Shown: positions 13,940-61,283 of the stretch, one piece after another
Layout of the letters: each line of letters begins with the position of its first letter
Numbering within the stretch: the first letter of the stretch is position 1
NCBI RefSeq assembly: GCF_001625215.2
Contig: NC_030383.2
Coordinates: forward strand, 1,500,779 to 1,564,778
DNA length: 64,000 bases
Direction of reading: 5' to 3'
From: Daucus carota subsp. sativus
Taxonomy: Eukaryota; Streptophyta; Magnoliopsida; Apiales; Apiaceae
Notes under the pieces: generated by a model
What the model was told of the DNA's origin: nothing
The model's input: only the letters and a program-made list of their open reading frames with translations
The model's database searches: none
Translations under genes and position numbers: made by a program

Positions 13940-14091
13940 AGTACCCATCATTCACTCTTGTCTGCAGAACCCTCTTCGGGCAAAGAATCAAATTATTTCC
14001 ATGTTATTTTACTTCTGCGTAGTGTAATTGTTGAAGTATCAAATTATAATCTCCATACATTACAAACATTTGTTTTCCTATACTCATAAAC

Positions 14092-17000: not shown

Positions 17001-17546
17001 GGCGTAGGTTTAAAGAGCTTACTAGTGATTGATTTGCCTGACCTGAATACTATTAATGTCATCAAAGATCTTTCTATTTGGGGGTGTCCGAACTATGAGG
17101 TGTTTGCCCAAAGTGTGAGTTCAGCAATTGAATGTTTGACATTGGGAGGCTTCTCGGAGGATTTAGATGAATTCCCATGGCCCTTATCCTTTTCTTTTCC
17201 CAATGTAATCGAGCTCACAGTGTGGGGGTGGGAAAAGCTAAAGTGGATAGTGGATGAAGAGCAACCTGATGATTATCTCTCCTCCATCTTCCCTTCCTTG
17301 CGTGAATTACATATACACTGGTTTCAGGGAGTGAAATCTCTTCCCATTTCACTAGCGAAGCTTCCTTTTCTGGAGAGGTTATCTATTGTGAAGTGTGAAA
17401 ATATGGAAAGCTTGCCAAACTTCCATGACAACTTGCAGTTCCTGTGGATAGGTGGATGTCCTATAATAAAAGAAAGATACAGGAAGGGTAGTGGCCCGGA
17501 ATGGTCCAAAATCCAACACATCAAACAGATAGATGGGCTCGATTGA
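14092..17546 (+). pseudogene. CC-NB-LRR (CNL) gene with single-base frameshift between P-loop and kinase-2
   Basis: This is a close paralogue of the CNL at 2638, in the same orientation and also single-exon. The first frame (14092-14886) covers the coiled coil with an intact EDVID-like segment (KLEDVAREADAFMDE) and the P-loop GMGGQGKTT. The second frame continues from 14883 through LLVLDDVW, GGLPLA, KMHDLVHD and the full LRR to TGA at 17544-17546, with the C-terminal tail that the first copy has lost. The break is in a G run: five G at 14879-14883 where the other copy has six. Apart from this one base the gene is open for about 1150 codons. It may therefore be a very recent pseudogene, a polymorphic allele or a homopolymer sequencing error. 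No other lesion was noticed. Confidence 0.9.
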
Positions 17547-20248: not shown

Positions 20249-22512
20249 TTATTCCCACGCATTCACCATCGGTGATATCACGATCGGACTCCTGACACTG
20301 TATTTCGAGTTCTCGTCAGTCCAGGTGAGTGAACCAAATGTAACAGTTCCGTTCTTGTCACCTGTAAAAGCTATTGCTACGGAGTAACTTAATTTCTCGT
20401 ACATCTTGCCGAATACTAGTGTATCTGGTGAAACTGTGACAACTGAACCCTTTGGCGCGGACACTTTAGCCTTGTAAGTTGCTGCACCGTCTCCCACATT
20501 TGTGACGGTCCTTGAATAATATTGTACCGTTGTTATTCCTCCAGTAGCCAGAGTACTGTTATACAAGCTGATAAAGGACGGGTAATTTAGATCAGAAGAT
20601 GGGCTTGAGCAACTAATATTGGTTCTTGTGATGGTATAGATTTGATTTATGGTAAAATTCATTGAGCAGAGTAAGTTGACATAGTCTTGTGTTGTGGCGT
20701 CGTATATAAGCCCTGGATTGAGGGCACGGTTAGGATCAACCTGACCAGCTCCCATTGACAGGGGAGTTGCAATATTGAAATCTGAGCCTATATCCTTGAT
20801 CTGGTGCTGTGAATTGTCCAGAGGGTTTGCAGTGGTCATCATTGCAGAACGAATTGCTGCAGGGCTCCATTCAGGGTGCGCGCCTTTTAGAAGAGCTGCA
20901 AGACCCGACGCGTGGGGACAGGACATAGATGTTCCTGAAACTGCAGTGTAATCACTTGACAATTGTATGTTAGCTCCAATACTAGATGTTGGAGTAGTTG
21001 GATTCCATGCTGCTAAGACTAATGTGCCCGGTGCCATGATGTCCGGCTTCAAAATACCCGGATAACTAGATGAAGGACCCCTTGAAGTGTATGCAGCAAC
21101 TGCAGGAGCAGGTTTTGTGCCAACAAATGTTTGTTGGAACGTGATGGTAGCTGATGGTTTTGAAGTTGTTTGTGCATACTTGATCACATCAAGTCCCTGC
21201 TTCGGGGTAATAACGATTCCAGGATAGGGGAAGTCATTAAACTCAAATAAGGATTGATCGTCGGATATAATGACACCAGCCACCGCGTTTGCGCTAGCAA
21301 CATAAGACAACATCTCAAGAGCCGCGGATATTTATTTTCACAAACGATGATAGCGTTAGCAGGAACTGTTGATAACTTTTCAGCAGAATCGCAAGAAGAA
21401 ATATTTTTGTCGTAGAAAAGAGGGATATCATTCACCAAGGCTTTTGCAGGGAACATGGTCCAGCCAGTGAGGCTCAACTCATTTCCCAAAATCAAGTTTC
21501 CGCCTAGCGTTCGATCAATGGAGCCTGCTGCAACTGTTAAGACCCATGGAATACCATTATGCAGATATCCAGGATCAGGGCCAGCATTTCCTGCTGAAGA
21601 AGAAACAAGCACACCTCTTTCCATGGCTCCAAAAGAAGCTATAGCAATAGGATCTTCGTACAAAGGCATATCATCAAAGCCCATGGAAATTGAAATGATG
21701 TCAACACCATCAGCAACAGCCTGATCCATACCGGCAAGAACATCTGAAGCATATCGCCCCTCATCCCAAATAACCTTATACATAGCCAATCTTGCCTTCG
21801 GAGCCATCCCTCGTGCAGTTCCTGAGGCATAGCCAAAATATGATGCCCCTTCAACATAGTTTCCACCAGCTGTTGAGGACGTGTGTGTCCCATGTCCTTC
21901 GGTGTCTCTAGCAGAGTTCATACTCAGAGTAATGTTAGGATTAGCAGCAAAAACACCCTTATTAAAGTACCTAGCTCCAATCAACTTCAAATTACAATTT
22001 GAAGCATTGAACTCTTGTCCAACTTCACAAGTCCCTTTCCATCTCGAGGGAACCTCAGACATTCCATCATCCTTAAAGCTTGCACTCTCGGGCCAAATAC
22101 CCGTGTCAATCACACCAATAATAACATCTTTCCCATAATCCGAGGCTGGCCATAGACCTGTAACAAGATTAAGAGAAAGAAACTCAAATGTATGAGTGGT
22201 ATCAAGTGTAACATTTTTGTCACTATAAGCTGAGACAAACCCTGGAGACTTCTTTAGTGTTTCCAATTCATCTTTCGATAGCAATGCAGAAAAGCCATGA
22301 AACGCATGATCATAAGTATAGACCAGAGATGGAGACGATTCGAGATCCTGAGCCTTGACAGAATGAATGGTGTTTGAGTACCAAAGATCATGGCTAGCAA
22401 AAGCCTCTGGCATCAATGATTTGTCCATGTGAACAATGTAAGTGGACCTTCCATTTCCAGAAATCAAGATTGCTTGAAAAGCCAAACATGCAAACAAAAG
22501 TAGAAACTTCAT
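20249..22512 (-). pseudogene. Subtilisin-like serine protease with one-base frameshift
   Basis: This single-exon minus-strand subtilase is close to the intact copy at 59004. It reads from the start MKFLLLFACLAFQAILISG (a signal peptide) and the inhibitor I9 prodomain (STYIVHMDKS) through catalytic Asp (GVIDTGIWPES), catalytic His (DTEGHGTHTSS), oxyanion Asn (SSAGNAG) and catalytic Ser (GTSMSCPHASG) to the Fn3-like tail. The frame breaks once, at about 21327: a single base is missing in the codons after ENKY, relative to the copies at the window start and at 60200. The first frame stops after 442 codons; the second covers the last ~354. Both halves are otherwise undamaged. A recent mutation or a base-calling error are both possible. 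An intact version would be a secreted, extracellular serine protease. Confidence 0.9.
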
Positions 22513-22556
22513 TTTCGAAGATTTTGGTAAGTGAAGCTAATGACTTGTGCATAAGA

Positions 22557-25854: not shown

Positions 25855-26135
25855 TTAGACAAAAAACATTGATTCGCCCACATCCTTATGCAAACGCGGC
25901 AACTGGGGGATTTGGCTAGAAGATTTTTCAGGCATGAACTTCCTCATCTGAGTAGCTGCCAAGCGAGCATAAGATACTGGAGCAGCTGGAGCAAAGGGAA
26001 AATCAACATCAGTACCAGAATGAAGATACACCAAACATTGCATTTAAATACAAATTGAGAAAGTGAATGCACTGGGTTAATATGTTATATGTACAGACCC
26101 ACGGAGATAGCAGTTGTGCTCCTCTGGGACCTGAA

Positions 26136-26371
26136 AGTGTTACAATTCATGTTTTATCAGCTAAAATGAAGAAGAAATGAGCAAACTCTTGTATTGCAAT
26201 GAAGAAGAAGAATACAATAAAGTGTATGTACTCACAGAAACTACATTGTGTAAAAGTTAGTTACAAGAGGAATGGGAAATGAGGTTATATAGAGCAGCTA
26301 ACTAATTAATAAAGATTGCTAAGGTACCCTAAGACTACTGTCTAATATATCTCAATAGAAAGTGCGACATA
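26136..26371 (-). mobile_element. Probable short solo LTR in intron 20 of the AGO4-type pseudogene
   Basis: The paralogue's intron is about 94 bp; here about 236 extra bases lie between TAATA and CTTTCAG. Read on the minus strand the insert starts TGTCGCAC and ends TTGTAACA, and includes a TATATAACC box, all LTR-like. No target-site duplication was found, so the assignment is tentative. Confidence 0.45.
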
Positions 26372-28962
26372 TTACTTGGATGTTATTGATCTCCTACATA
26401 GACTTAACATTAACTCATAAGAAACACTTAGTAACTTACACGTAAGAAAGTGAATGAACCAACTCTTGCAGATCATCAGGGGAAAAACCAACTTGGTCCA
26501 ACAGAACATGATAATGGGTTGGCCTTGTAGTGCCCTATTGACATGAAAGATAATGTTAAGACGCAACACAAAGAGTGTACACAGAAAATATGACGAAATT
26601 ATAATAAAGAGAATTAGATATACTCATGCATCTGACGCACTTGGAATCAGTAAACTACAATTTAAAAACAATTGAAACTAGTACAGGGAGCACAAGTTAT
26701 ACCAACCTGAGTGCACAAGTAAAAGTCATTGTTTTGGGGATGACAGATCGTATTGTCAATCACAGTTCCTGCACATAGAGAGATTAGTGTTTTATGCAAC
26801 AAACCATGATATTAAAGCCTATGGACTATTTAAGAATCTTGAACATTTTACCAGGGTCAATATGCTCAGTAGATTCAGGCCGAAAAAACCTGGTATGAGA
26901 CTCTTCTGTGCGATAATAACAACAAACTGCGGGGACCAATTTGCATCCCAGAACTTACAGGCCTACAAATATATTTTAGAAGACCCGTTTCAAGAAGAAT
27001 AAAACACAGAACAGATAAGTGAATATTAATACACACACCTTGATGATTTGATTCAGTTCAACATTCAAAACCTTGTCAAACTGAGATTCGCTAACGCCAT
27101 CCCTAATCATGAAAGTGAGAAACAAACTTTTGTTACTGAGCAAATAAGAGTTCATCACAACCTACTCGACATGTTTTTGAAAGGGAGGACAAATCTTTTA
27201 TATTTAAAGTAAATTAAATCGAAGCAAGAGAAAGTAATCTGGGACAATCATCCAATCAATGAAATACACAACAAGATATCCTGATTAAATAAAAGGTACC
27301 TAAAAATAATGATTTGATCAGGTCTTCTGCCTCCCGAACTTGTGCAGAAATCCACTAAAAGTTCCCTGCAATTACGGAGAAGCTTTCTCTCTTACATATT
27401 CTCCCTAATATACTCAATGCTGGCATTAAATCACATAATGGCTTGTATACAATAGTTCAATTAATAAACACATAATAAAATCAAAAAATAAATCCACCTT
27501 ATAATCCCATCATCTTTTCTGTAAGAAACTTTTTGAAACAAAGAGTCAATCATTGCAACCTTCGGGGACTGAGTACGAACCCATGCCCTATACTTTGAGA
27601 TCAGTGGGCAACACCTTGAACTAACGACCTGTGTAAATATTAAGAAAGAAATATAGATAAAATGATACCTAACTGAACCCAACTTGTAATTTCAAATGGT
27701 CGGTAAAATAGATCCCACACTTCACATCTTCCATTCCCATTATCTATATTTCAAATTCCAAAGCTAAAAAGACCTTTCCACAAATGTTGCATTAAATAAT
27801 ACATAGAAGAGAAGATATCACCCCTAGAACAATAGAATTACTTAAAAGGAGACTAGAAGATAGCAAATAATTAAAAGAAGTGCTTAACCGCAGCAACGGA
27901 TGGAACATCAGACTGCCCAGGAGAGCCATGGAAGACACTCATCCCAAGAATGAGCATAGGGACCTCTGATTCAGACGGATTGCTAGGAGAAAGCTCAACT
28001 GATAAATTTGAGTTTAAACCACCAAGCTTCCCAGACGATGAAGAGAATGTCAGAAAAATAACTCAAAAGTGTGTGAGTGCAAAAATTGATTGTAGCAGAA
28101 TATCACAACAGTAATCCGGCAATAAAGAAAACCTTTGCATTGATTTTAAGAAGAACATTCGTCAAATATTGATCATTGACTTCTTTAGGAGCAAGGCATT
28201 GTGTAACTACTCCATACACAGTCAGATTCTTCCTTTTCCAGTAACCTTTCAGAACAATACAAGATGGATTAGCAAATTTGAAACATCGGGAGAAAATTTA
28301 AACAAATTATGAGGCCCAGAGTAATAAATGAAGGGGAGGCAAACCATAAAGAGGGGACTTTTTCCTCTCAGGAAGTAAACAGAGGAGAAATTGTGGCTTT
28401 TCTTTGATCTTCGAAAATAATGATTGCCCCATCATTTCAACTCTCACAAAAGGAGGTGAGAGCTTATGCTCTGAACTCTCCTCAACCACATCGATAGGAG
28501 GAGCAATGTTCTATTAGAAACAAAAATAAAGAAGAATATATTTAGCATTAGCAGTTAAGATCAGAGCATTATAAATAAATGGCAGTCTTAATTAAAGAAC
28601 TGTACTTACCATTCCCTTCAAATTACCACATCTGATGAGGTCTTTTATAAGACAATCAATATCGCAACGAGCAGAAAAGTTAACAACAGCCCAATAGTTT
28701 ATTGTTGTGGGCTCCACAAGTTTCTGCACATCAAACTCACATAAATTTTGCGCCATATGAATGACACATATAAACCTTTAAGAACTCTACAGTAAGGCAA
28801 ACCTTATTGTTGAAATTCCAGCGCCCGTTGCAGGGAAGAATATCATCTCCACCTCCCACTTTCAACTGTAATAAAATATACCCCAAGAATCCATTAACTC
28901 ATATACCTTCTATAAAAAAAAAACATAGCCAAAGACACCAATAAAAGTATATGATACAGGGG

Positions 28963-29230
28963 CCAGGAGGATGTACCCTTAGTGCTGCAAGAATGCGCCC
29001 TTCGACTAATTACTAACTAATTAATAAAGATTGCTAAGGTACCCTAAGACTACTGTCTAATATATCTCAATAGAAAGTACGACATATTACTTGGATGTTA
29101 TTGATCTCCTACATAGACTTAACATTAACTCATAAGAAACACTTAGTAACTTACACGTAAGAAAGTGAATGAACCAACTCTTGCAGATCAATAAAAGTAC
29201 ATGATACAGGGGCCAGGAGGATGTACCCTT
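28963..29230 (-). repeat. Rearranged duplication block inside the AGO4-type pseudogene
   Basis: Bases 29014-29188 are an almost identical copy (one mismatch noticed) of 26308-26482, which spans part of exon 20, intron 20 and the LTR-like insert. The exon-9/intron-9 junction (GGGCGCATTCTTGCAGCAC onward, about 50 bp) is present twice, on each side of the copied segment (about 28967-29008 and 29190-29245). The pattern is a direct duplication with a templated insert from 2.7 kb downstream in the same gene. Confidence 0.9.
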
Positions 29231-31114
29231 GGTGCTGCAAGAATGCGCCCTTGGACTTGAGTAAAGTTATTGCTAAGTGAAACACCACAAGCACGCAGCA
29301 AAGGCTCATCAGCAAAGCTCATGATACCTAGAGCCTGCAGACAACATGAAATTAGTGGAAAATAAACAGCACCAATATGATCTCTCAAAAGGTTGATACA
29401 AAAGAATTACATTTGTCAAAGTAATCATCCTATTTTGTGATTTCTGCCTTGATCCTTCCACAAGCGACGCGCATGGATAAGTGGTCAGAGCTTTTGTATA
29501 ATGTTGCAAGGAAACTAGTGAACAAAGCTACAGAAAAATTGAAGCCAAATGTAATGTCAGAAATTCATATATACTGAAATTGTAAATAATAAAGAGGGGA
29601 AAAGATTTACCTCTAGAGGGATATATGTTGGTCGATCAGGTTTTCCAACATCAATGCATGGCAAATCAGCAGAGTAACTTAGTGGAATTTTTCTGATGTG
29701 TACAAAATAATCATACACGCTGATTCTAATTATTTGTGGCTCCCCATTCTCATCTTTTTTGCCTTTAAGCTTCATTGGAAACCTAGAAGATCACGAAACA
29801 AACATAAATCATCTATTGAAAAGTTCACATAAAAGATGGAAATACAGAAACATACACAAGCTCTTTGCAGATTTTATCGCTCAGTCCAGTAATCTTGTAC
29901 TCAGTGTTAGTTGGACTGGTCTCCACCTTTGAATTTTTCAGCACTCCTTTGGCCTGGACAGAGGGGGAAATAAAGAATCCACAAATAATTAGTTATAGAA
30001 CTAGAGAATGTAGTGAACTTTGGGTTACCTCTTCCCAGTCAAGAGAGAGTGGATCCTTAGCATTCTGATTCGCTGTGAGGAAATCAACAACAGGCCGAGT
30101 CTCGAAAATCTTCTTGGTGGATACATCTGATAGTCACAAAACAAAGCTAGTTAATAATATAATCTGTTGTACAAGCTATTTCTTATATAGAAACATAATC
30201 AAATATACCTATATTCAATGATAAGCCTCCCTGCGAGGTACAGAAACTCGAATGAAGTCCACAAACATGGAGGAATCCCCTGCAGCTCTCTGTATTAGTG
30301 ATCAATAATGAATGACAAGATCTACGAAAGAAAAGGAACAAGAACATACTTTTTAGCTAAATGCTGCCTGAGGATAATATCCAAAACCCTTAGGGCCTTC
30401 CGAGATTTCTCCAAATTCTGACCATTTAAAGTCTTTGCAATGGCCTGCACTGGAATCTTCGCAGCATAAGATATCTCCACCTTGTAAGTCTTTGATGGAT
30501 AAGAATTTCTCAGTCTTTGCAATGGCCTCCATACGGATTTGAGAAGAGAGAACCCGCTGGATGAGATATCTTGAATTATAATAGTAAACTCCAGCTTGTT
30601 TCTTGGAAGAGCTCCAACAGTAAACAAACTCTTTTTACCATCATACGCAAAATCCTTCCCATCCAACTCAGCCTTGTATGTGTCATGAACAAGATCAAGG
30701 ATTTTTCTCCCTACACCTTTACCATCAAGTGGACGCCCATCTCCATAAAAAATGGCAACCTGAAGAAGTACATATGCATACCGTTTACACTTAACTGTAA
30801 GACAAATCAAAACGAAACAAGAAAATAAAACATTGGAAGCACAGTATGCTAATTGAGAGAAATTTACGTACTCTGTATTGATAAAAATATTCATCAGCAC
30901 TAGTCACATCGACTTTAAGGTGATTTGTACAAAGCTGAACGATATTTCCTTTCGTTGCCAAGCCACTTCTGGCCATTGGCACAAATGCAATATTCTCTTG
31001 CATATCCTGCATACAAAAATGTTAAAGTTCATCACCTCTTTCTCTATCCAGAAGCTTCCAGCTTACTCTTTGAAATAATTAAATAAGTGCTTTCTAGGCA
31101 TTAAAATATCCATC

Positions 31115-32129
31115 TGTTAAGCACAATCACTTTTAGTTATTACTAATGTACTAGAAGCTTCACAGAAGCAATATATAAATCTGTAAACCAGTGCAGTTTT
31201 GTAAGTGAGAGAAAGAAGAGGAGGAGAAAAGAGAAGTAAAAGGAGTGGTTTTTCAATAAAGTTCTCTTGTGTGTAGTGTATCAATCTTGTTAGTGTTTGC
31301 AAGTGTCTACTTTGTTCAACAATTTGGCATCAGAGCCAGGCAGTCAGGAACGTTGTCAACACAATATGGTGGACCATACAACAAGTGCAATGGAGAAACT
31401 CACTATAACTATCGAGATTGGAAGACACATGGGCGGACCTACAGCTTGAGGTCTGGGTGCCCAGGAACCCACTGAATTTTCTACTGAAACAAGGCAAACT
31501 TACCATTTTGCTTGTGTACGTAGATGATTTAATCATCACTGGTGATGACATAGATGAATAGAACGCACAAGGAGCAATTTGTCAGTGCGATTTCAAATTA
31601 AAAGATTAGGGGAATTAAAGCATTTCTTGGGCTTGAAATTGAGCAAACAAAAAATGGATTATTTCTTTGTCAACTCAAATATGCAAGAGATCTACCGGGA
31701 AAATTTGGAATGCTGGAATGTAAGACAGTCCCTACTCCGATGGTTCCTAATAGTAAATTATGTTCAGAAGAAGGGCAGGAGCTAAAATTTGGAACTGTGT
31801 ATAGACAATTAGTGGGTAGTCTTATCTCCCTGACTTTGTCACGACCTGATATATCATATGCCGTTGGTGTGATAAGCAGGTTTATGCAGAATCCTAGAAA
31901 GCCACATTTTGAAGCAAAGCCACATTTTGAAGCAGCTAAAAGAATACTTCGCTACATCAAGGGGTCCATTGACTATGGTCTTCTATACAAGAAGAATGAG
32001 GATTGTGAGCTTGTAGGCTACTGCGATGCAGATTATTCAGGTGACTGTGACACTCGACGCTCAACTACTGGATACATATTTACACTTGGCTTGACAGCTA
32101 TATCTTGGTGTAGCAAAAGACATATATAA
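31115..32129 (+). mobile_element. Ty1/copia retrotransposon remnant: 5' LTR, primer-binding site, fused RT/RNase H fragment
   Basis: A 207-bp LTR (TGTTAAGC...TTCAACA, 31115-31321) is followed by a tRNA-Met-type primer-binding site TTTGGCATCAGAGCC (31323-31337). Sequence then jumps to the reverse-transcriptase block LLVYVDDLIITGDD (about 31507-31550) and, in shifting frames, to the RNase H block ([17 protein letters not shown]) ending at 32129. gag, protease and integrase are deleted, stop codons interrupt the RT, and a 15-17 bp in-frame duplication ([12 protein letters not shown]) lies at about 31900-31935. No 3' LTR is found. It lies upstream of the first recognised coding exon of the AGO4-type pseudogene. 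Confidence 0.88.
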
Positions 32130-33297
32130 TTGACTAAAAAGTGTGCTATAAACCAACACTTTAAAGCAAAATATCACAAAATCAACATGTAATAAACACT
32201 ACGGGAACTCACGAATAATCACTAAACATGAAACTGAACCAACGAAAGCAAACAACACATACATATCAAATCTCAAACAACTTACAAAATCATACAGAGA
32301 TGTATATTCACATACATTATACATATATAATTGACTAAAAAGTGTCCTATAAACCAACACTTTAAAGCAAAGTATTACAAAATCAACGTGTAATAAACAC
32401 TACGGAAACTCGCGAATAATCACTAAACATGAAGTTGAAGCAACAAAAGGAAACAACGCATACATATCAGATCTCAAACAACTTGCGAAATCATACAGAG
32501 ATGTATACATAAGCAAAATATTACAAAATCAACATGTAATAAACACTACGTAAACTCACTAATAATCACTAAACATGAAATTGATGCAACGAAAGGAAAC
32601 AACACATACATATCAAATCACAAACAACTTACGAAATCATACAGAGATGTATATTCACATACCTTATACATAAGCAAAATATTACAAAATCAAAATGTAA
32701 TAAACACCACGGAAACTACGAATAATCACTAAACATGAAATTGAAGCAACGAAAGCAAACAACACATACATATCAAATCTCAAACAACTTACGAAATCAT
32801 ACAGAGATGTATATTCACATACATTATACATAAGCAAAATATTACAAAATCAAAATGTAATAAACACCACGGAAACTACGAATAATCACTACAAATGAAA
32901 TTGAAGCAACGAAAGCAAACAACACATGTATATATCAAATCTCAAACAACTTACGAAATCATACAGAGATGTATATTCACATACCTTATACATAAGCAAA
33001 ATATTACAAAATCAACATGTAATAAACACTACGTAAACTCACTAATAATCACTAAACATGAAATTGATGCAACGAAAGGAAACAACACATACATATCAAA
33101 TTTCAAACAACTTACGAAATCATACAGAGATGTATATTCACATACCTTATACATAAGCAAAATATTACAAAATCAAAATGTAATAAACACTACGGAAACT
33201 CACGAATAATCACTAAACATGAAATTGAAGCAACGAAAGCAAACAACACATACATATCAAATCTCAAACAACTTACGAAATCATACAGAGATGTATA
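32126..33297. repeat. Tandem array, seven units of about 160 bp
   Basis: Units begin with AAGCAAAATATTACAAAATC at about 32164, 32365, 32511, 32672, 32832, 32994 and 33155. The last four intervals are 160-162 bp; the first two units differ in length and carry an extra ACTAAAAAGTGT.CTATAAACCAACAC block. Each unit contains AATAATCACTAAACATGAA, CATACATATCAAAT and AAATCATACAGAGATGTAT. There are no evenly spaced identical short repeats with unique spacers, so it is not a CRISPR-type array. Confidence 0.92.
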
Positions 33298-45532: not shown

Positions 45533-48500
45533 ATGGCTTCTCCTCATGCACAAGATCGTGAGCCTGCATTGTCAATGACTCGCAGCGGCTTGGCAACGAA
45601 AGAAACAAAAGTTCAACTTTATATTTATACTAATCACTTTAAAGTGAATGTGACCAATGTTGATGGGTATTTTTTTAAATACAATGTAAGTATGTTTCTC
45701 TCAATCATGGGACTCAGTACAATAGGATAGTGTGCTTCCTGTGTTTTTTCCTCGTTTTTATTTGCCTGACAGTTGTGCATTAAGTGTAAATAGTATGCAG
45801 TATCTAAGCATATGTACGTCTCCAGGTTTCAATTTTTTATGAAGACGGTCGTCCACTTAACGATAAAGTTATAAGGAGGAAAGTACTTGATCGTGTTCAT
45901 GAAACTTACAAGGCCGAGTTTAATGGGAATTTTTTTGCATATGATGGTGAAAAGAGTTTGTTTACTGTTGGAGCTCTTCCAAGCAACAAGCTGGAGTTTA
46001 CTATTGTTCTTGAGGATATCTCATCCACTAGGTATCCTCTTCTTAAACTTATAACTACGATTTTTTTACATTCAGTGGCTTTGTCCTGACATAATTATTG
46101 TCATTAATTCTTTTCAGGACCACTGGAATGAGGAGTCAACATGCTCATGGAAGTCCTAATGAAAGTGACTGGAAAAGAGGGAAACATCCTTATCCATCAA
46201 AGACTTACAAGGTGGAGATATCTTATGCTGCAAAGATACCTATGCAGGCCATTGCCAAAACTTTAAGTGTTCAGGACTTAGAGAAATCTCCTGAGGCTCT
46301 GAGGGTTCTGGATATTATCCTCAGGCAGCATTTAGTTAAAAAGTACATTATTGTTCCTTATCTTCTGTATGGCTTGTCATTCATGATTGATATTAATACG
46401 GAGAGCTGCAGCTGCAGGGGATGCCTCCTTGTTCGTGGATTTCATTCGAGGTTCTGTACCACGCAGGGTGGCTTATCGTTGAATATAGGTATATTTGATT
46501 ATGTTCCTATATAAGAAATAGCTTAAACATCAGATTATTTTGTTAACTAATTTTGTTTTGTGACTATCAGATGTATCCACCACGAGCGTCATCCGGACTC
46601 GGCCTGTTGTTGAGTTCCTTATAGCCCATCAGAATGCCAAGGATCCATTCTCTCTTGACTGGGAAAAGGTAAAACACAGTTCACTACATATTTTGGTTCT
46701 ATAAATGATCATTTGTGGATTCATGTTTTCCTCTGTGCAGGCCAAAAGAGCGCTAACAAATTTTAAGGTGAGGACCAGTCCAACTAACACAGAGTACAAG
46801 ATTACTGGACTGAGCGAGAAAATCTGTAAAGAGCTTATGTATTATTCTACTACTTTCAATCTAGCACTTTGTTACATTGTTGATGGTGTTTCGATGCTCT
46901 TAAAAATAATTTTCCTGCCAATCTCAGTTTCTATTTGTGATCTTGTAGGTTTTTTTCGAAGCAGAAAGGGAAAAAAGATGAGAATGGAAAGCCACAAATG
47001 ATTGAAATCACCGTGTATGATTATTTTGTAGACATTCGAAGAATTCCGCTGAGTTACTCTGGTGATTTTCCATGCATTGATGTTGGGAAACCTAATCGAC
47101 CAACATATATCCCTTTAGAGGTGAATCTTTTCCCCCATTTGTTATTTACCATTTCAGTATATCCCTTCACAGGATGATAATGAATTTCTGACATTATAAC
47201 TGGCTTCAATTTGTTTGTAGCTTTGTTCAGTAGTCTCTTCGGAAAATTATACAAAATGTAACTCTTCCGGGTCACTGGTGGAAATAACAAGGCTGAAACC
47301 AAGAGATAGGATGACAGTTTTAACAAATGTAGTTCTCGTTTATCAACCTTTTGAGAGATAGTTTTGGTGCCGTTTATTATCGACTAATTTCATGGTCTCT
47401 GTAGGCTCTTGGAATTAACAACTATGCTGCTGAGCCTTTGCTGCGTGCTTGTGGTGTTTCAATTAGCAATAACTTTACTCCAGTTAAAGGGCGCATTCTT
47501 GCAGCACCAAGGGTACACCCTCCCCCCTTATCATATACTTTTATCGGTATCTTTGACTATGGTTTTTTTTAGAAGGTATATAGTTTTGTGAGTTAATGGA
47601 TCTTGATGAGGAGAACTCGGGGTATATATTATTACAGCTGAAAGCAGGATGTGGAGATGACATTTTTCCCTGCAACGGGCGCTGGAATTTCAGCAACAAG
47701 GTGTGGTTTCCGTAGAGTTCTAAAGGTTTATATGTGCCAAAAAACTTAAGAGTTTGATGTGTGTGTGACCAGAAACTCGTGGAGCCCACAACCATAAATG
47801 ATTGGGCTGTTGTTAACTTTTCTGCGCAATGCGAAATTGATTCTCTTATAAATGAACTCATCAAATGTGGAGAAGAGAAAGGAATTGTAAGTACAATTCT
47901 TTAATTAAATCTGCCATTTATTTAAATGTAAAGTGCTAATGTTAAATGCATTCTTCTTTATTATTTTTTCTAATAGAACATTGCTCGTCCTGTAAACGTG
48001 TTTGAGGAGAGTTCAGAGCACAGGCGTTCACCTCCTCTTGTTAGAGTTGAGATGATGTGTAAATTGTTATTCTCGAAGATTGAACAAAAGCCACAGTTTC
48101 TCCTCTGTTTACTTCCCGAGAGGAAGAATTCCCCTCTTTATGGTTTGCCTGTGCCTTGTAATTTGTTTATATTTTCGACTGATTTTTCAAATTTGCTAAT
48201 CCATCCTGTATTGTTCTGCAAGGTCACTGGAAAAGGAAGAATCTGATTGAGTATGGAGTTGTTACACAGTGCATTGCTCCAGCAAAAGTCAATGGTCGAT
48301 ACTTGACAAATGTGCTTCTCAAAATCAATGCAAAGGTTTTCTTTGTTGCTGGATTACGGTTGTGATATTCTGATACAATCATTTTTGCCCTTACACACTT
48401 ATGAGTTAATTTTCTGACATTTTACTTCATTGTCTTGGCAGCTTGGTGGTTTAAACTCAAAGTTATCAATTGAGCATTCTCCTAGCAATCCATTGGAATC

Positions 48501-50670
48501 AAAGATACCGACGCTCATTCTTGGGATGAGCGTTTTCAATGGATCTCCTGGGAAGTCTGGTGTTCCATCCATTGCCGCGGTTAATCACTTCTTTTAATTA
48601 TTTGCTATCTTTTTTCCATCTTTAAGTAATTCTATTATTCTAGGGAAAGTATTATTTTAGAATTCTGTATTGTTGTGCAGAGGCGGATCTTAGAAGGGGC
48701 AAGAGGGGGCAACTGACCCCCCTTAATTTTTTTGTTTGTTAATATTATACATATTTTTAGGTTGTAAAATTGAAATTGACCCCCCTTAATTTTTTTGTGA
48801 CCCCTTTTAAATTTTTTTACAAAATAATTGACCCCCCTTAACTTTATAGTCAGATCCGCCACTGTTGTTGTGCACTATTTGATTCAACATTTGTGGGCAG
48901 TCTAGGATCTTATTCACCGACAGTTTGAAATTATATGTCGGGTTTAAATAATTATCATTTTATCTAATTTTCTTAAATAAATATTTGCATAGGTCGTCAG
49001 TTCAAGGTGTTGGCCACTGTTCTCAAAGTATAGGGCATGTGTCCGTACTCAGTCCCCGAAGGTTGCAACGATTGAGTCTTTGTTTCAGAAAGTTTCTGAC
49101 AAAAAAGATGATGGGATTATAAGGTGGATTTAAATTTTGATTTTATTATGTGTTTTACTATTGTGTACAATCCATTATGTGATTGGAGGTAATGCCAGCA
49201 TTGAATAAATTAGTGATATAGCTTCTTCATAATTGCAGGGAACTTTTGATGGATTTCTACACAAGTTCGGGAAGCAAGAAACCTGATCAAATCATTATAT
49301 TTAGGTACTTTTTATTTCATCAGGATATCTTGTTGTTTATTTCATTGATTGAATAATTGTCCCCGATTTATTTATCTAGCTTCGATATAATTTACTTTAA
49401 ATGTAAAAGATTTGTCTTTAACTTTTAAAAACATGCCAAGTAGGTTGTGATGAATTCAAATAATAGTTTCTTTCTCACTATAATGATTAGGGACGGTGTC
49501 AGCGAATCTCAGTTTAACCAGGTTCTTAATGTTGAACTGAATCAAATCATCGAGGTATGTGTACTAATATTCAATTATTTGATCTGTATTTTATTCTTTT
49601 TGAAACGGGTCTTCTAAAATATATTCGCAGGCCTGTAAGTTCTGGGATGCGAATTGGTCCCCGCAGTTTGTTGTTATTATCGCACAGAAGAATCATCATA
49701 CAAGGTTTTTTCGGCCTGAATCTACTGAGCATGTTCACCCTGGTAAAATGGTCAAGATTGTTAAATATCTCCATAGGCTTTAATATCATGGTTTGTTGCA
49801 TAAAACGCTAATTCTCTCTCTGTGCAGGAACTGTAATTGACAATACGATCTGTCGTGGACAGAACAGTGATTTTTACCTGTGCTCTCATGCTGGTATAAC
49901 TGTGAGTATTTTTACTTGTTACTTGAATGTCTGATATATTTTATGCCATCATTGCATTAATTTTCTTGTGATATATTTTGTCATTCCCTCACGCCGTGTA
50001 TGCCGACTTGCTCCCAATACTGGTTTCAATTGTTTTTAAATTGTAGTTTAATGATTCTCCTAAACGTCAGATGCATGAGTATATCTTATTCTCTTTACTA
50101 TAATTATGTCATTTGGCTTTATTTTCTGTGTACACTCTTCGTGTTGCGTCTTAACATTATTTTTCATGTCAATAGGGCATTACAAGGCCAACCCATTATC
50201 ATGTTCTGTTGGACCAAGTTGGTTTTTCCCCAGATGATCTACAAGAATTTGTTCATTCACTTTCTTATGTGTAAGTGACTAAGTGTTTCTTATGAGTTAA
50301 TTTAGCTGTTAATTAAGTCTATGTAGGAGATCAATAACATCCAAGTAATATGTGGTAATTTCAGGTACCAGAGCAGCACAACTGCTATCTCTGTGGGTAT
50401 GTACTTATAACATATTAACCCTGTGCATTCACTTTCTCAATTTGTATTTAAACGCAATGTTTGGTTTATTTTCATTCCAGTACTGATGTTGATTTTCTCT
50501 TTGTTCCAGTTGCTCCAATATCTTACGCTCACTCGGCAGCTACTCAGATGGCGAAGTTCATGCCTGGAATTTCTTCTAGCCATGGTGTGATCAATACTGC
50601 TGGATCTGTTCCAATCCCCCAGTTGCCGCGTTTGCATGAGGATGTGTGCAACTCAATGTTCTTTGTCTAA
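45533..50670 (+). CDS. AGO4: ARGONAUTE4-type protein, predicted slicer-deficient
   Basis: Predicted exons: 45533-45685, 45826-46031, 46118-46342, 46418-46488, 46571-46668, 46741-46838, 46949-47120, 47221-47328, 47405-47512, 47638-47700, 47773-47886, 47977-48142, 48223-48335, 48442-48579, 48993-49123, 49239-49304, 49491-49554, 49631-49742, 49828-49901, 50176-50270, 50365-50396, 50510-50670. All have GT/AG borders, and the total of 2568 nt is exactly 856 codons including TAA. Domains are ArgoN (from RSGLATK, about residue 16), DUF1785, PAZ, MID and PIWI, ending NSMFFV. This family loads 24-nt siRNAs and guides DNA methylation in the nucleus. Two features are odd. The first PIWI catalytic Asp (GMDVSHG in canonical AGO4) is GMSVFNG, Ser595. 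Exon 4 joins GCLLVR directly to GFHSRF, lacking about 22 residues. The second Asp (FRDG, 678) and PTHYHVL are kept. The N-terminus is short; an upstream non-coding exon is likely. Confidence 0.88.
48678..48864. mobile_element. hAT MITE in intron 14 of the AGO4-type gene
   Basis: The ends are CAGAGGCGGATCTTA and GTCAGATCCGCCACTG, with the 8-bp direct repeat TTGTTGTG on both sides (48670-48677 and 48865-48872). It is 187 bp, non-coding, and absent from the corresponding intron of the inverted paralogue, so it arrived after the duplication. Confidence 0.9.
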
Positions 50671-51155
50671 GACCGGAGAATGTTTAAACTCTTGAAAGCC
50701 TTGTGTATATACTATCGTCAGTCTAGTTCGCTAATGAGTAATGAGTGTCGGGGAGTGTTAACAACTTGGAATCATTCATATGCTTTTGGACAGCAAGCCA
50801 GTATTGCTTTACTTTCTGCTGCTTGTTATGCAAATATGGCTGCTGAACTCGCTATGCTGAATAATTTTGGTTATTGACTGACAACTTTAAAAATGCGCAT
50901 ATTTTGATCTTCTAGTATGTTTCTGTGCATGTTTGTGCATATATATTTACTCGGTTAAAATTACTCAATTTGTTCAGTGGCATTTCACTTACCTGTTATT
51001 CCTGTTATTATATATTTGCATATTTGTAAGCTTATTGTCCTGATTAATAGCTATGGAATAAGTGAAGTATCCTATGTATTTCATTTATCTGGCATACTTA
51101 CAATCACTTGGCCGATTGAAGATAAAGGCTTAGAGCCGTTTAGAGCTGATACATA
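50671..51155. other. 3' flank of the AGO4-type gene
   Basis: This is the likely 3' UTR and downstream spacer. A 65-codon ORF at 50680 is probably UTR. No gene is seen. Confidence 0.45.
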
Positions 51156-51537
51156 AACGCTGTTGCTGGTATCATAATATTTGTGGTTCCCTATCCTGGA
51201 ATCGTTATTACCCCGAATCAGGGACTTGATGTGATCAAGTACGCACAAACAACTTCAAAACCATCAGCAACCATCGCGTTCCAACAAACATTTGTTGGCA
51301 CAAAACCTGCACCTGCAGTTGCTGCATACACTACAAGAGGCCCTGCAGCTAGTAATCTGAGTATTTTAAAGCCAGACATTATGGCACCCGGGACATTAGT
51401 CTTAGCGTCATGGATTCCAAATGCTCCTGCATCCAGTATTTCCCCTAACATACAATTGTCTAGCAATTTCAATGCAGTTTCAGGAACATCAATGGCATGT
51501 CCTCATGCCTCTGGCCTCGCAGCTTCAACACTATCAT
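51156..51537 (+). pseudogene. Subtilase fragment (protease-associated domain to catalytic Ser)
   Basis: It is nearly identical to 60246-60641 of the intact subtilase, except for loss of about 30 bp after ATCATAATAT (the DDQSVYEFND codons). It starts in the AVAGII block and ends abruptly just after the catalytic Ser motif GTSMACPHASGLAA. Sequence beyond 51537 is unrelated to subtilase. The high similarity points to a recent partial copy of the gene at 59004. Confidence 0.92.
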
Positions 51538-51849
51538 AGTGGTTACCTAAATCACTAGCACAATCTCAAATCTAATCTCAAATCTATTAGCCATTACCTA
51601 TTTTTAAGTGACCCCTAGCCATTACCTATTTAATATTTATCAATAAAATAATCATCTCTCTCCTTTATTTGTCATTTTCCCTCCTTTTCCTCTTCTCTCA
51701 CTCAAATTTATTACTAAAATAATCTTAGGAGAACAAATATAGAGATTGCTATTGATGTTGACACTAAAAATAGATTACCTAAATCACTAAAACTCATTAA
51801 GATTTATTATTTTATATTATTAATAAGTAATGAGTCTCCCAATTAGTTG
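51538..51849. other. AT-rich insert between subtilase and acyltransferase relics
   Basis: A TTACCTAAATCACTA motif occurs at both ends (51543 and 51775), suggesting an inserted repeat. No coding capacity. Confidence 0.4.
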
Positions 51850-54372: not shown

Positions 54373-56821
54373 TTAGGAGATGATACTAAATAACAATGAA
54401 CCATAGATTTCAGTACCTAATTGCAAAAACCATTGGCAGAAAGCAAGAACGACGGGGTCTTGTTCTTCCTGTTCTTCTTTATGTAATAGGTCTACTACCA
54501 TGGATGTGGTAGATGCATCCTCTGAGAATTTGTGAGCTCTCATGTTCTCAGTCAGTACAACTGCTTCTTCGTATCTTTTATTGAAAAGACTGCCACGGAT
54601 GATCGTGTTGTAAGTCACATCGTCATGCAAACAACCGCTAGTTTCCATTTCAGAAAGTAATATCTTTGCTTCCTCAAACAACCCTTCTTGACAAAATCCT
54701 TGAAGCATTGCAGTGTATATCTTCACGTCGGGCTGCAAACCTCTCGAAGCAAGCTTATCAAAAATATTTCTGGCCTCATCAATTTTTCTGTTCTTGCAGA
54801 GACCATCGATGAGGATAGGGGTGGCAATTTCGGGTAATGGGTCGGGTTCGTGTCGGGTTGTCTTACCTGGTCCAGTTTTTGGGTCAATTCGAACCCGACC
54901 CGAACCCGAAATGGGTCGAAAATCTCAACCCGAACCCGACCTGTTAAGTACCCGATTGACCCGAAAATGACCCGTTTTGACCCGAAATTTATTAAAAATT
55001 AATTATTTTAATTATATTTAATTATAATATATTAATAATATATTAATAATAATTTAATAAGATTATATGTGACAAAAATATTCTTAATATTATATAAATA
55101 TATCATAAATATATGTAATTTTAAAATATAAATATATATAATTAATATAATATATTTATATATATATATTTCGGGTCGGGTTCGGGTACACTGGGTCAAC
55201 CCGAACCCGACCCGAGTTTTTCGGGTAAAAAACTACCCGACCCGAAATGTAAAAACCCCGACCCTAATTCGTATTTTTTCGAGTCGGGTTCGTGTCGGGT
55301 TTCGGGTCGGGTCTGATTTTGCCACTCCTAGATGAGGATATTATATATTTGAATATCATGAACTATACCTTTGCATTCCATCATTCGAAAGACGGAAATT
55401 GCTTCGTCCATGTATCGGTTCTTGAAAAGGCCATCCAACAAAATTCGATATGTTACGATATCTGGTTAATTACCCTTTTTAAGCATTTCATGGAAAAGGT
55501 TGTGCACCTCAGCAGGTCTACCCATCCGAAAGAGACCATGTATGATGGTGCAGTAGGTTTGAACATTGGGTTTTAAACCTTCAACAGGCATTTGTCTGAG
55601 GAGATTGAAGGCTTTGTCTACTTCCAGCCTCTTACAATAGCCATTTATCAGAATGTTATAGCTACAACAATTTGGCGCTATCCCATTATTCCTCATGGTA
55701 TTCAGCACCTCTAGTGCCCTGTCCATTTTGCCTGTTAAACAAAATCCATCCATTAGTGTGCTGTAGGTTATTACATTAGGAGGTACACTTTTTTCGATCA
55801 TAATTTCAATCACATCTTGAGAATCTTTTGTCCTCCCTTCTTTGCAGTATGCATCAACTAATATATTATAGGTGTGCAAATTAGGAGGGATCTTCTGAAC
55901 ACCCATCTCCCTTAACAACGGGTCAATGTCCTCCCATCGGCCAGAGCTGCAAAGACCTTGAAATAGCGTGCTATAGGTTATAACGTTAGGTGATATGCCT
56001 TTTTCGATCATTTCAGACAAAAGATCTAATGCATGATCAACTCGTCTCTCTTTGCACAAAGAATCAATAATCGAGGTATAAGTTACAGTATCTGGTCTGC
56101 AACCTAACTTCTCCATCTTTCTTAACAACTTGAGCGCCATGGAGGTATTTGAAGTTTTGCACAGACCATCAATGATGGTGTTATACATAACTGCATTGGG
56201 CTGAATTTCCCGAAATCTGATAAGCTTCGAAAACAAACGCTCAGCCTCCAAAGGCCTTTCTTGAGATAGAAGGCCCTTGATGAGAGTGCTGTAGGTCACA
56301 ACATCGGGGACAAGACCGCGTTTAGTAATTCCAGCAAGCAACGAAAAGGCATAATCAAGTGTATTCAAGTGACAACAGGAATGGATGGTGGTATTAAAGG
56401 TAACAATATCAACAGGAATGCTTAAAACACGGAATTCTCTGAACATAGAGACAGCGACAGAGTACTCTTCCATTCGAACGAGGGCGGTTAACAGTTGTGT
56501 GAAATGCAGCACAGAAAGCCTAGATTTCAGAAGGAGCATTTTATCGAACACAAGAAGAGCATCGTTGAGTTTATCAAAACCAACCTTAGATTTATGATAG
56601 AGTAACTGTTTTAGTTCGGGATGAGTGGTGAATGGAGAAGGAATAAAGGGGGCTTTGGGTTGTGAATCAGGGTTAGGTATAGTAGAGAAAAGAAGAAAAT
56701 GAGAATGGACTAAAAGAGAAGGGGTGCTTACAGTTTGAGGCCTTGACATGAATGAAGTGAGAGCATGAAATCGAGTGGTTGGTGGTGTTTGAGCTCTTGT
56801 TTTGAAGAAAATGGCAGACAT
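54373..56821 (-). pseudogene. P-class pentatricopeptide repeat (PPR) gene, RFL-like, broken by a stop and a hAT MITE
   Basis: From the ATG at 56821 an N-terminal segment rich in Ser, Thr, Arg and Phe (a likely mitochondrial presequence) leads into a run of 35-residue P-type PPR motifs. About nine are in the first 451 codons (motif starts such as DVVTYSTLIKGL and NVITYSTLMDGF). TAA at 55466-55468 falls at the junction before a PDIVTYRILLDGL motif. In the same frame the repeats continue to 55339, are interrupted by the MITE at 54816-55330, and resume at NILI/DGLC with the 8-bp duplication to end at 54373. Without these lesions it would be about 640 residues with about 13 motifs. Such proteins bind organellar RNA, and the RFL group includes fertility restorers. 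A product ending at the stop would still carry nine repeats, so residual function cannot be excluded. Confidence 0.88.
54816..55330. mobile_element. hAT MITE with CGGGTC repeats inside the PPR gene
   Basis: The ends are TAGGGGTGGCAATTTCGGG and TTTTGCCACTCCTA, with the 8-bp direct repeat GATGAGGA on both sides (54808-54815 and 55331-55338). Both terminal parts consist of reiterated CGGGT/ACCCG units; the centre is AT-rich. Removing the element and one repeat restores the PPR frame, so it inserted into a functional coding sequence. Confidence 0.93.
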
Positions 56822-56905
56822 GGCTACAATGCGCAGAAATGAGAGATCCAGGAATTGAAATGGAACTCTTTTACCACCTGGGCCTGGAGTAGGTAAATCA
56901 CTGTG

Positions 56906-57483
56906 GGGCCGTTTGGCTCGACTTAAAAGAAGTGACTTATTGCTTAAAATAAAGAAGTGGATTAAAAGTGAAAAATTGATTTAGACTTAAAAGTTATTAC
57001 AAGTGTTTGGATACCGTGACTTATAAGTTCTTATAAGTTATTTAAGTGTTTGGATAACTGAACTTATAAGTTAGTATAGTTGTGTAATTTTGTAATATAA
57101 ATTGTTTTATTTAAAAATAAATTATAATAATACAAAACCTTCTATTATTAATAGACAAAATATTTCATAAATAAAAAATATAAGAACTATGCATTAAAAA
57201 TATAAACACTATGCATTAGAAGAAAAAATTCTACTTTCTGTTAATTAAAGAAGAAGCAAGAAGAATTAAAGAAAAAGAGTTGCAGCAGAAGATCGGCGAC
57301 GAAGAGAAGGAAAAGGAAGTGTTTGTAATAAGCTGGAGTTAAAAAAGAAGCTGGGTTTTGAAGCTTTTTCTTGGAGCTTCTTTAGCTGAAAATAAGCGCT
57401 CTTTACGATTTGCCAAACAGCCGATTTATAAGTGAAGGGGGCTTTTTGGGCTTTTAAGCCCGTAAGCTCAATCCCCAAACACC
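56906..57483. mobile_element. MITE (probable hAT) upstream of the PPR gene
   Basis: The ends are GGGGCCGTTTGGC and CCCCAAACACC (imperfect inverse), with direct repeat CACTGTG at 56899-56905 and 57484-57490. Internal GACTTATAAGTTATTAAG-type sequence and AGCTTTTAAGCC blocks are typical of such elements. It begins about 85 bp before the PPR start codon, so it replaces or displaces the proximal promoter. Confidence 0.7.
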
Positions 57484-58956: not shown

Positions 58957-59003
58957 CCTAGGAAGGCAGATTGGTTTCACTATCCAAACTGTGTTGAGCA
59001 AAG

Positions 59004-61283
59004 ATGGGGTTTGTGAATGGAGTTTGCTGTGTCCTGTTATTTGCATGGTTGGCCTTTCAAGCCATCTTAGTTTCCGGAAATGAGAGGTCTACTTACATTG
59101 TTCACATGGACAAATCATTGATGCCAGAGGCTTTTGCTAGCCATGACATTTGGTATTCTGCCACCATAGACTCTGTCAAGTCCCAAAATCATGAATCTTC
59201 GCCATTTCTTCTCTATACTTATGATCATGCATTTCATGGTTTTTCTGCGTCGCTAAGTATAGATGAATTGGAATTGTTGAAGAAGTCTCCGGGGTTTGTC
59301 TCAGCTTATGGTGATAAGAAGGCCACAGTTGATACCACGCATACATATGAATTCCTTTCGCTTAATCCACTGACAGGCTTATGGCCGGCTTCAGATTATG
59401 GGAAGGATGTTATTATTGGTGTCATTGACACGGGTATTTGGCCTGAGAGTGAAAGCTTTAAGGATGATGGAATGTCTGAGATTCCTTCTAGATGGAAGGG
59501 GACTTGTGAAGAGGGACAAGAGTTCAATGCTTCAAATTGTAACTTGAAGCTGATTGGAGCTAGATACTTTAACAAGGGCCTCCGTGCTTCAAATCCTAAT
59601 ATAACCATTAGCATGAACTCTGCTAGAGACACTGAAGGACATGGAACACATACTTCATCTACAGCTGGTGGAAACTATGTCGAAGAGGCATCATATTTTG
59701 GCTATGCATCAGGAACTGCACGAGGGATGGCTCCGAGAGCAAGATTGGCCATGTACAAGGTTCTTTGGGATGAGGGAGGATTTGCTTCAGATATTCTTGC
59801 TGGTATGGATCAGGCTGTTGCTGATGGTGTTGATATCATATCAATTTCCCTCGGCTATGATGGTATGCCTTTGTATGAAGATCCTATTGCTATCGGTTCA
59901 TTTGGCGCCATGGAAAAAGGCGTGCTTGTTTCTGCTTCAGCAGGTAATGATGGCCCTGGACTTGGATATTTGCATAATGGTATTCCATGGGCCTTAACAG
60001 TTGCAGCAGGCTCGATTGATCGAACACTAGGTGGGAGCTTAGTTCTTGGAAATGGATTAAGCCTCAGAGGCTGGACCATGTTCCCTGCAAACGCCTACGT
60101 GGAAGATGTCCCTCTTTTCTACAACAAAACCATCTCTACTTGTGATTCAATTGATCACTTAGCAGAGGTTCCAAGTAGCGCCATCATCATCTGCGAAAAT
60201 AAACTTTCCTCAGTTGCTGATATGTTGTCTTTTGTTGCCAACTCAAACGCTGTTGCTGGTATCATAATATCTGATGATCAGTCAGTATATGAGTTTAATG
60301 ATTTTCCCTATCCTGGAATCGTTATTACACCGAATCAGGGACTTGATGTGATCAAGTACGCACAAACAACGCCAAAACCATCCGCTAGCATCGCGTTCCA
60401 ACAAACATTTGTTGGCACAAAACCTGCACCTGCGGTTGCTGCATACACTTCAAGAGGCCCTGCAGCTAGTAATCCGAGTATTTTAAAGCCAGACATTATG
60501 GCACCCGGGACATTAGTCTTAGCGTCATGGATTCCAAATGCTCCTGCATCTAGTATTTCCCCTAACATACAATTGTCTAGCAATTTCAATGCAGTTTCAG
60601 GAACATCAATGGCATGTCCTCATGCCTCTGGCCTTGCAGCTCTTCTTAAAGGCGCGCACCCTGAATGGAGCCCTGCAGCCATTCGTTCAGCAATGATGAC
60701 CACCGCAAACCCCCTAGACAATTCTCATCAACAAATTCGAGACATAGGCACAGATTTTGAAATTGCCACTCCCCTGGCAATGGGAGCTGGTCAGGTTGAT
60801 CCTAACTGCGCCCTCAATCCAGGGCTTGTCTACGATGCCACAACCGATGACTACATCAATTTCCTCTGCTCAATGAATTTCACAATGACTCAAATCTATA
60901 CCATCACAAGAACCAATATTAGTTGCTCAAGCCCATCTTCTGATCTAAATTACCCGTCCTTTATCAGCTTGTATAACAGTACTCTGGCTACTGGTGGAAT
61001 AACAACGGTACAATATTATTCAAGGACCGTCACAAATGTGGGAGACGGTGCAGCAACGTACAAGGCTAAAGTGTCCGCGCCAAAGGGCTCAGTTGTGACA
61101 GTTTCACCAGATACACTAGTATTCAGCAAAATGTACGAGAAATTAAGTTACTCCATAGCAATAGCTTTTACAGGTGACAAGAACGGAACTGTGACATTTG
61201 GCTCACTCACTTGGATTGACGAGAACTCAAAATACAGTGTCAGGAGTCCGATCGTGATATCACCTATGGTAGACGCATGGTAA
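59004..61283 (+). CDS. Subtilisin-like serine protease (plant SBT, MEROPS S8), intact
   Basis: This single-exon gene encodes 759 aa, the usual length for plant subtilases. Order of parts: hydrophobic signal peptide (about 1-25); inhibitor I9 prodomain with STYIVHMDKS (about 28-110); catalytic domain with Asp142 (GVIDTGIWPES), His213 (EGHGTHTSS), oxyanion Asn315 (SASAGNDGPG) and Ser535 (GTSMACPHASG); a protease-associated domain inserted between His and Ser (about 355-480); and a C-terminal Fn3-like domain ending SPMVDAW. It should be secreted to the apoplast and autoprocessed there. It resembles the SBT1-type proteases and the tomato SBT3 group; the substrate is unknown. The start is supported by the signal peptide and by the minus-strand copy. 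It is the only undamaged member of five copies in the window and probably the source of the fragment at 51156. Confidence 0.95.
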   Translation: MGFVNGVCCVLLFAWLAFQAILVSGNERSTYIVHMDKSLMPEAFASHDIWYSATIDSVKSQNHESSPFLLYTYDHAFHGFSASLSIDELELLKKSPGFVSAYGDKKATVDTTHTYEFLSLNPLTGLWPASDYGKDVIIGVIDTGIWPESESFKDDGMSEIPSRWKGTCEEGQEFNASNCNLKLIGARYFNKGLRASNPNITISMNSARDTEGHGTHTSSTAGGNYVEEASYFGYASGTARGMAPRARLAMYKVLWDEGGFASDILAGMDQAVADGVDIISISLGYDGMPLYEDPIAIGSFGAMEKGVLVSASAGNDGPGLGYLHNGIPWALTVAAGSIDRTLGGSLVLGNGLSLRGWTMFPANAYVEDVPLFYNKTISTCDSIDHLAEVPSSAIIICENKLSSVADMLSFVANSNAVAGIIISDDQSVYEFNDFPYPGIVITPNQGLDVIKYAQTTPKPSASIAFQQTFVGTKPAPAVAAYTSRGPAASNPSILKPDIMAPGTLVLASWIPNAPASSISPNIQLSSNFNAVSGTSMACPHASGLAALLKGAHPEWSPAAIRSAMMTTANPLDNSHQQIRDIGTDFEIATPLAMGAGQVDPNCALNPGLVYDATTDDYINFLCSMNFTMTQIYTITRTNISCSSPSSDLNYPSFISLYNSTLATGGITTVQYYSRTVTNVGDGAATYKAKVSAPKGSVVTVSPDTLVFSKMYEKLSYSIAIAFTGDKNGTVTFGSLTWIDENSKYSVRSPIVISPMVDAW

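Follow-up and report, generated by a model that had tools for sequence, protein, structure and literature searches.

When an Argonaute gene has lost residues of its slicer centre and yet keeps an open reading frame, it must be asked whether the frame is held for some role that does not need slicing or whether the gene is decaying and has so far escaped a visible lesion. The question is raised by a gene at positions 45533-50670 (+) of the window, by which is meant the whole stretch of 64,000 nucleotides of Daucus carota subsp. sativus contig NC_030383.2 (positions 1,500,779 to 1,564,778) that was analysed. This gene is called the main copy, and a second AGO copy in the window is called copy 2.

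Gene model, clade and catalytic centre

The splice model gives the main copy 22 exons that join into 2568 nt in a single unbroken frame, coding for 855 amino acids plus a stop, with GT-AG borders at 21 of 21 introns (Table 1), and a test for pseudogene lesions on this model found no stop, frameshift or lost splice site. An earlier note, made from the sequence, had described 22 exons and a continuous frame of 855 residues, and this description is borne out. The Pfam domains ArgoN, ArgoL1, PAZ, ArgoL2, ArgoMid and Piwi occur in that order in the main protein and all score above the curated cut-off; by its N, L1, PAZ, L2, MID and PIWI domains the protein is a eukaryotic Argonaute. The ArgoL1 match is partial (19-51 of 52), and all six domain scores are lower than those of AtAGO4 (for Piwi, 306 vs 375 bits). 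The AtAGO4 reference used throughout is a provisional sequence of length 924 in which D660, D742 and H874 stand in place, in agreement with the numbering under which these catalytic residues are printed (PMC10069450).

Clade membership was assessed by matching published MEME blocks against the best of 500 shuffles, with 28 of the 50 blocks tried (PMC5007885, Tables 1-2). In the main copy, six of the seven blocks specific to the AGO4/6/8/9 clade (28, 30, 32, 37, 42, 46 and 50; PMC5007885) score higher than any of the 500 shuffles; block 50, with 5/11 matches, falls below the best shuffle, and copy 2 matches it at 8/11. None of the 12 comparison blocks, which are specific to or typical of other Argonaute clades (45, 48, 40, 47, 39, 31, 20, 41, 44, 19, 49 and 36), exceeds the shuffles. 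By these blocks the predicted protein belongs to the AGO4/6/8/9 clade, as the earlier note's assignment to the AGO4 type had anticipated. The DUF1785 blocks 27-33-6 are reported in at least 90% of clade members (PMC5007885); block 6 is present in the main copy, while blocks 27 and 33 do not exceed the shuffles there and are equally low in copy 2. Their absence is a deletion shared by both copies of a clade member, and not a feature of another clade.

In an alignment with solved Argonautes, the four catalytic columns read S-A-D-H in the main protein and D-E-D-H in the references, where the human AGO2 residues are, apart from those given in the cited papers, the ones which we take to form the tetrad. 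Ser595 shares its column with Asp597 of human AGO2 (row numbering), the Asp of AtAGO10 and D660 of the provisional AtAGO4, which confirms the serine that the earlier note had placed at the first PIWI catalytic aspartate. The note had also named the second Asp and PTHYH as retained sites; the second Asp stands, and PTHYH is indeed retained, but the catalytic His is that of YAH instead. PTHYH is ruled out as the third catalytic site by the column of human His807, by the plant Argonaute block PPAYYAHLAA, which contains the catalytic YAH His (PMC5007885), and by H874 of AtAGO4, all of which correspond to YAH; in the provisional AtAGO4 these two His are residues 831 (PTHYH) and 874 (YAH). The loss of the tetrad Glu to Ala, which like the second AGO copy was absent from the earlier note, falls at a residue that is present in plant Argonaute block 4 (AHRQEMIQDLF; PMC5007885). 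With the Asp and the Glu both lost, the predicted protein lacks a normal slicer centre. In a search of solved structures (PDB) with the main protein, AtAGO10 was the best among the 49 sequences listed, none of which is named as a plant AGO4-clade protein.

The positions of the MID 5'-phosphate pocket, whose membership is partly assumed from human AGO2 residues, are retained in the main protein (Y527, K531, Q543, K561 and K565), and the predicted pocket could hold a 5' phosphate. Four of six PIWI seed-phosphate contacts are likewise retained, at the positions of human K709, R761, Y790 and S798. Arg792 of human AGO2 is a guide-phosphate contact and Tyr804 another named guide contact (PMC4390867, PMC4824133); the main protein has Ser795 for the first, and for the second Ser807, where copy 2 also has Ser and the provisional AtAGO4 has Cys.

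Table 1. Coordinates of features of the two AGO copies in the window, counted from its first nucleotide
Feature	Position	Strand	Basis or remark
Main copy, exons 1-6	45533-45685, 45826-46031, 46118-46342, 46418-46488, 46571-46668, 46741-46838	+	
Main copy, exons 7-12	46949-47120, 47221-47328, 47405-47512, 47638-47700, 47773-47886, 47977-48142	+	
Main copy, exons 13-18	48223-48335, 48442-48579, 48993-49123, 49239-49304, 49491-49554, 49631-49742	+	
Main copy, exons 19-22	49828-49901, 50176-50270, 50365-50396, 50510-50670	+	
L1 linker deletion junction, about 22 residues, blocks 27 and 33 gone	46431..46439	+	both copies
Ser595 (AGC), for first catalytic Asp	48529..48531	+	motif GMSVFNG; splice model and alignments
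Ala636 (GCA), for catalytic Glu (glutamate finger)	49065..49067	+	aligned to AtAGO10, human AGO2 and provisional AtAGO4
Asp678, second catalytic Asp, retained	49492..49494	+	alignment
Ser795, for equivalent of human AGO2 Arg792	50372..50374	+	changed in main copy only
His810 (YAH), catalytic His, retained	50530..50532	+	column of human AGO2 His807
Copy 2, inverted AGO copy, now broken	25855..31003	-	tblastn of main protein on the window
Copy 2, Ser codon AGT at first catalytic Asp (GMSVFHG)	27937..27939	-	
Copy 2, Ala codon GCA at catalytic Glu	27554..27556	-	
Copy 2, exon 18 frameshift, 1-base deletion at QKNHHTRFF motif	region 26895..26905	-	
Copy 2, exon 19 donor GT missing at aligned place	26690..26695	-	99-base gap vs main copy

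The second copy and the order of events

Copy 2 is 86% identical to the main copy over aligned exon positions, and its tetrad reads S-A-D-R, with Arg where the main copy has the catalytic His810. Its exons 2 and 3 are apparently fused in frame, and at exon 19 a GT one base beyond the donor place would shift the frame. Common to both copies are the Ser, a Phe two residues after it, the Ala and the L1 deletion of about 22 residues; within the GMSVF motif copy 2 retains a His where the main copy has Asn. Since the Ser is found in both copies, spelled AGC in one and AGT in the other, it is ancestral to both, and the loss of the Asp predates the duplication. As read from the two sequences, the order of events is slicer loss, then duplication, then breakage of copy 2. 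In the explanation preferred here, a lineage of the AGO4/6/8/9 clade first lost the Asp (now Ser), the Glu (now Ala) and a stretch of the L1 linker. An inverted duplication of the slicer-dead lineage followed, the frame was afterwards under weak purifying selection, and copy 2 finally broke while the main copy stayed intact. Within the window, the pair of AGO copies and a pair of subtilase genes are arranged in mirror order, which fits an inverted block duplication. A pattern scan of genome contigs for relatives returned 46 pattern matches, of which none was confirmed.

Several smaller features accompany the two copies. A 178-base stretch of the 3' part of copy 2 is repeated in its intron 9 with 99.4% identity (29013-29190 and 26298-26475), which, judged by that identity, is a recent internal duplication. 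The 3' parts of the two copies (49555-50670 vs 25855-27040) are closer to each other than the rest, with introns 92.6% identical vs 86.0% elsewhere, perhaps through gene conversion. Between the copies, divergence is higher at four-fold degenerate sites (JC 0.23, 276 sites) than in introns (p 0.128, 1985 sites). Upstream of copy 2 lies a retrotransposon-like sequence (31084-32129) with a weak RVT_2 match below the Pfam cut-off, whose copia-like call and bounds were set by eye; this element may have severed copy 2 from its promoter.

Selection on the reading frame

Omega was computed pairwise between the AGO copies, so every value given here is a mean over both branches. Codon maximum likelihood gives 0.451 over 779 codons, and an omega of 1 is rejected (2dlnL 35.3, p ~3e-9); 41 of 856 codons are unaligned, and further ambiguous stretches were dropped from the input. 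NG86 gives 0.453 when all 814 aligned sense codons are used and 0.439 when 779 are. Among the domains, the extremes of NG86 omega are 0.30 (95% 0.17-0.53) in MID and 0.63 (0.41-1.07) in L1-PAZ-L2, with intervals that overlap.

The distribution of insertions and deletions bears on the frame directly. The introns of the two copies differ by 60 indel events, of which 47 have a length that three does not divide, and the exons, over about the same length, by 10 events, of which 6 are of such length; in exon 8, indels of +4 and -13 sum to -9. By our own reading of the 10 exonic events, four are damaging (exon 1 +5, the exon 2/3 junction, exon 18 and the exon 19 donor). Exons have about 8-12 times fewer non-triplet indels than introns, and Fisher tests against the 47 intron events give p values of 2e-10, 5e-9 and 7e-7 when 4, 6 or all 10 exonic events are counted. 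This exonic deficit argues that coding selection outlasted the loss of the slicer. A neutral branch would be expected to accumulate 16 to 23.5 frame-breaking indels and the main frame has none; provided that intron indel rates apply and that the branches are equal, no more than 13-19% (95%) of the main branch was neutral. When a single branch is simulated as neutral with 0.03, 0.05 or 0.07 changes at each site, 2.8, 4.5 and 6.2 stops arise, respectively, and the probability of none is 0.06, 0.0085 and 0.002; in copy 2 the terminal stop is the sole stop in 815 aligned codons. Neutrality of the main copy throughout its history is ruled out by the omega below 1 and the unbroken frame.

The earlier note's claim of a frame maintained despite a lost catalytic residue is supported by the omega below 1 and the indel deficit; the dN/dS comparison that it had proposed does reject an omega of 1, at 0.45, but the value is averaged over branches, and exons and introns are alike in identity. 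Over aligned positions, identity is 86.0% in exons (2467 positions) and 87.7% in introns (2065), with 505 intron and 101 exon positions without alignment between the copies. Amino-acid changes in 812 columns, polarised by the provisional AtAGO4, comprise 55 in the main copy only, 65 in copy 2 only, 181 shared and 71 unresolved. At 90 PIWI positions that are invariant in the provisional AtAGO4, AtAGO10 and human AGO2, the main copy has 12 changes, seven of them its own, including the seed-phosphate Arg to Ser; copy 2 has 13, of which one is the frameshift gap and five are common with the main copy. As a yardstick, the neighbouring subtilase pair, which is of similar divergence and in which one gene has frame-breaking gaps, gives an omega of 0.20 over 755 codons; the NLR pair in the window gives 0.41 over 1120 codons. 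By these comparisons purifying selection acts only weakly on the predicted AGO copies, and invariant residues disappear at the same pace from the intact copy and from the broken one. A normally constrained Argonaute is ruled out by the equal exon and intron divergence, the change counts and the invariant PIWI losses.

The main gene is best read as weakly maintained or starting to decay. The reading adopted here, with a probability of about 0.48, is that it represents a slicer-dead AGO4-clade lineage, duplicated and with its frame weakly held, whose product, if made, would be a putative siRNA binder, a poor effector of RNA-directed DNA methylation (RdDM) and possibly a competitor in it. Nearly as likely is that decay of the main copy is already under way, selection having long held the frame and now ended, so that the main copy is on its way to becoming a pseudogene but has yet to acquire a stop or frameshift. 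Such decay would agree with the near-equal numbers of changes in the intact and the broken copy (55 vs 65), the invariant residues lost from the main copy (a guide-contact Arg among them), an exon divergence as high as that of introns, an AGO omega double the value of the neighbouring subtilases, a sister copy that is already broken, and the case of a coffee AGO4 paralog without the triad that was not found expressed (PMC5407642); against these stand the frame breaks expected under neutrality and missing from the main copy, with the small neutral share that this implies, the GT-AG borders retained at all 21 introns, and the omega below 1, though this last is a mean over both branches.

Predicted consequences of slicer loss, and related Argonautes

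If the weakly held, slicer-dead AGO4-clade protein is expressed, it would be predicted to take up DCL3-type 24-nt siRNA duplexes through its MID 5'-phosphate pocket and, once loaded, to cut neither passenger strand nor target and to retain the duplex. It would add little to RdDM, in the manner of an engineered slicing-defective AGO4, and would at most compete with true AGO4 for siRNA or act without slicing; the decoy or slicing-independent RdDM role suggested in the earlier note is a conjecture. AGO4 itself reportedly cuts the passenger strand as well as target transcripts, and where it is competent to slice, methylation increases at virtually all RdDM loci; engineered D742A retains 23- and 24-nt strands, and D660A/D742A/H874A showed no slicer activity (PMC10069450). 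The catalytic loss in these engineered proteins resembles that in the main protein, but they are lab-made, whereas the carrot loss is natural and includes the Glu. A stronger proposal, that the main protein is a natural slicing-defective AGO4, preserved by selection since the Asp and Glu were lost, which holds 24-nt duplexes uncut and so tunes or sequesters the siRNA pool of true AGO4, is considered unlikely.

Retention of slicing, with Ser595 or another group as substitute metal ligand, is very improbable: published discussions regard non-DDH variants such as DDD and DDK as active or possibly so (PMC2576257, PMC3098777), but here the tetrad Asp and Glu are both gone, and triple-alanine AGO4 showed no slicer activity (PMC10069450). 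An artefact of sequencing or of the splice model, which would leave a true transcript with Asp, scarcely merits consideration even though the splice model was derived from sequence only, because the Ser in copy 2 has a different codon spelling (which also rules out a read error at Ser595), because the Glu is lost in both copies as well, and because the Ser codon stands within exon 14, which is 138 nt in both copies, at 87 nt from its start and 48 nt from its end, so deep that a small splice shift would not restore the Asp.

The main protein is like Arabidopsis AGO4 and its clade in six of seven clade-specific blocks and in having the same six Pfam domains, and it differs from Arabidopsis AGO4 in the missing catalytic Asp and Glu, the missing DUF1785 blocks 27/33 and a short N-terminus. 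Proteins of the AGO4 group whose catalytic residues are altered have been published before, and the main protein is thus of a known kind: coffee CcAGO4.1 has the triad ENR/R and showed no expression in that study's RNA-seq libraries (PMC5407642), potato StAGO6b has GQA/P (PMC12885295) and wheat TaAGO8 has YDH/P (PMC9513535). In all three the first catalytic Asp is replaced as in the main protein, but by a residue other than Ser; in CcAGO4.1 and StAGO6b the whole triad is altered, whereas the main protein retains the second Asp and the His.

The rice proteins OsAGO11, OsAGO13 and OsAGO17, which presumably lie outside the AGO4 clade, offer a further comparison. Their first Asp is missing or replaced (GDH, -D- and HDR, respectively; PMC2576257, Table 2), giving Gly, no residue and His where the main protein has Ser; OsAGO17 is expressed, and an effect on grain size and joint action with miR397b are reported for it (PMC7061870). 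Arabidopsis AGO8, a presumed pseudogene of the AGO4 clade for which ovule phenotypes are nevertheless reported in mutants, owes that label to predicted problems of splicing and frame and not to its catalytic residues (PMC5105840). Human AGO1 and AGO4 are natural Argonautes described as catalytically inactive, but they retain the glutamate finger (PMC9262622), which the main protein lacks. Ser at the first triad position is found in none of the triad tables consulted for rice, potato, coffee, wheat and citrus; a few phrasings of a search of the open-access literature gave no report of an SDH-type Argonaute, and for the altered-triad Argonautes of rice, potato, coffee and wheat no report of the glutamate-finger state was found in the passages covered.

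The carrot locus represents an AGO4-clade lineage that is slicer-dead and present in two copies, and past selection for an intact frame has been measured in it, but it also has signs of decay and precedents in print. If the main gene is maintained, it would provide a natural test of which part of RdDM needs slicing and of a dominant-negative action of slicer-dead paralogs; should the gene only be in decay, it would be a record of the collapse of a retired Argonaute, catalysis first and frame last.

The remainder of the window holds other repeated and interrupted genes, and this gene content (NB-ARC, subtilase and PPR genes) marks it as plant nuclear DNA. Subtilase genes or fragments occur in several copies, at 20249-22536 (-), 58998-61283 (+), 51150-51539 (+) and 1-1543; the copy on the minus strand is spread across two reading frames, and the stretch 51187-51524 is 97% like 60304-60641. 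Two related NB-ARC/LRR disease-resistance genes, with the pairwise omega of 0.41, lie at 2575-6042 (+) and 14050-17546 (+), the latter split over two overlapping frames. A tandem array whose copies are shifted by about 160 bases occupies 32120-33297, and a pentatricopeptide-repeat sequence at 54373-56980 (-) falls into two separate open reading frames and is apparently interrupted.
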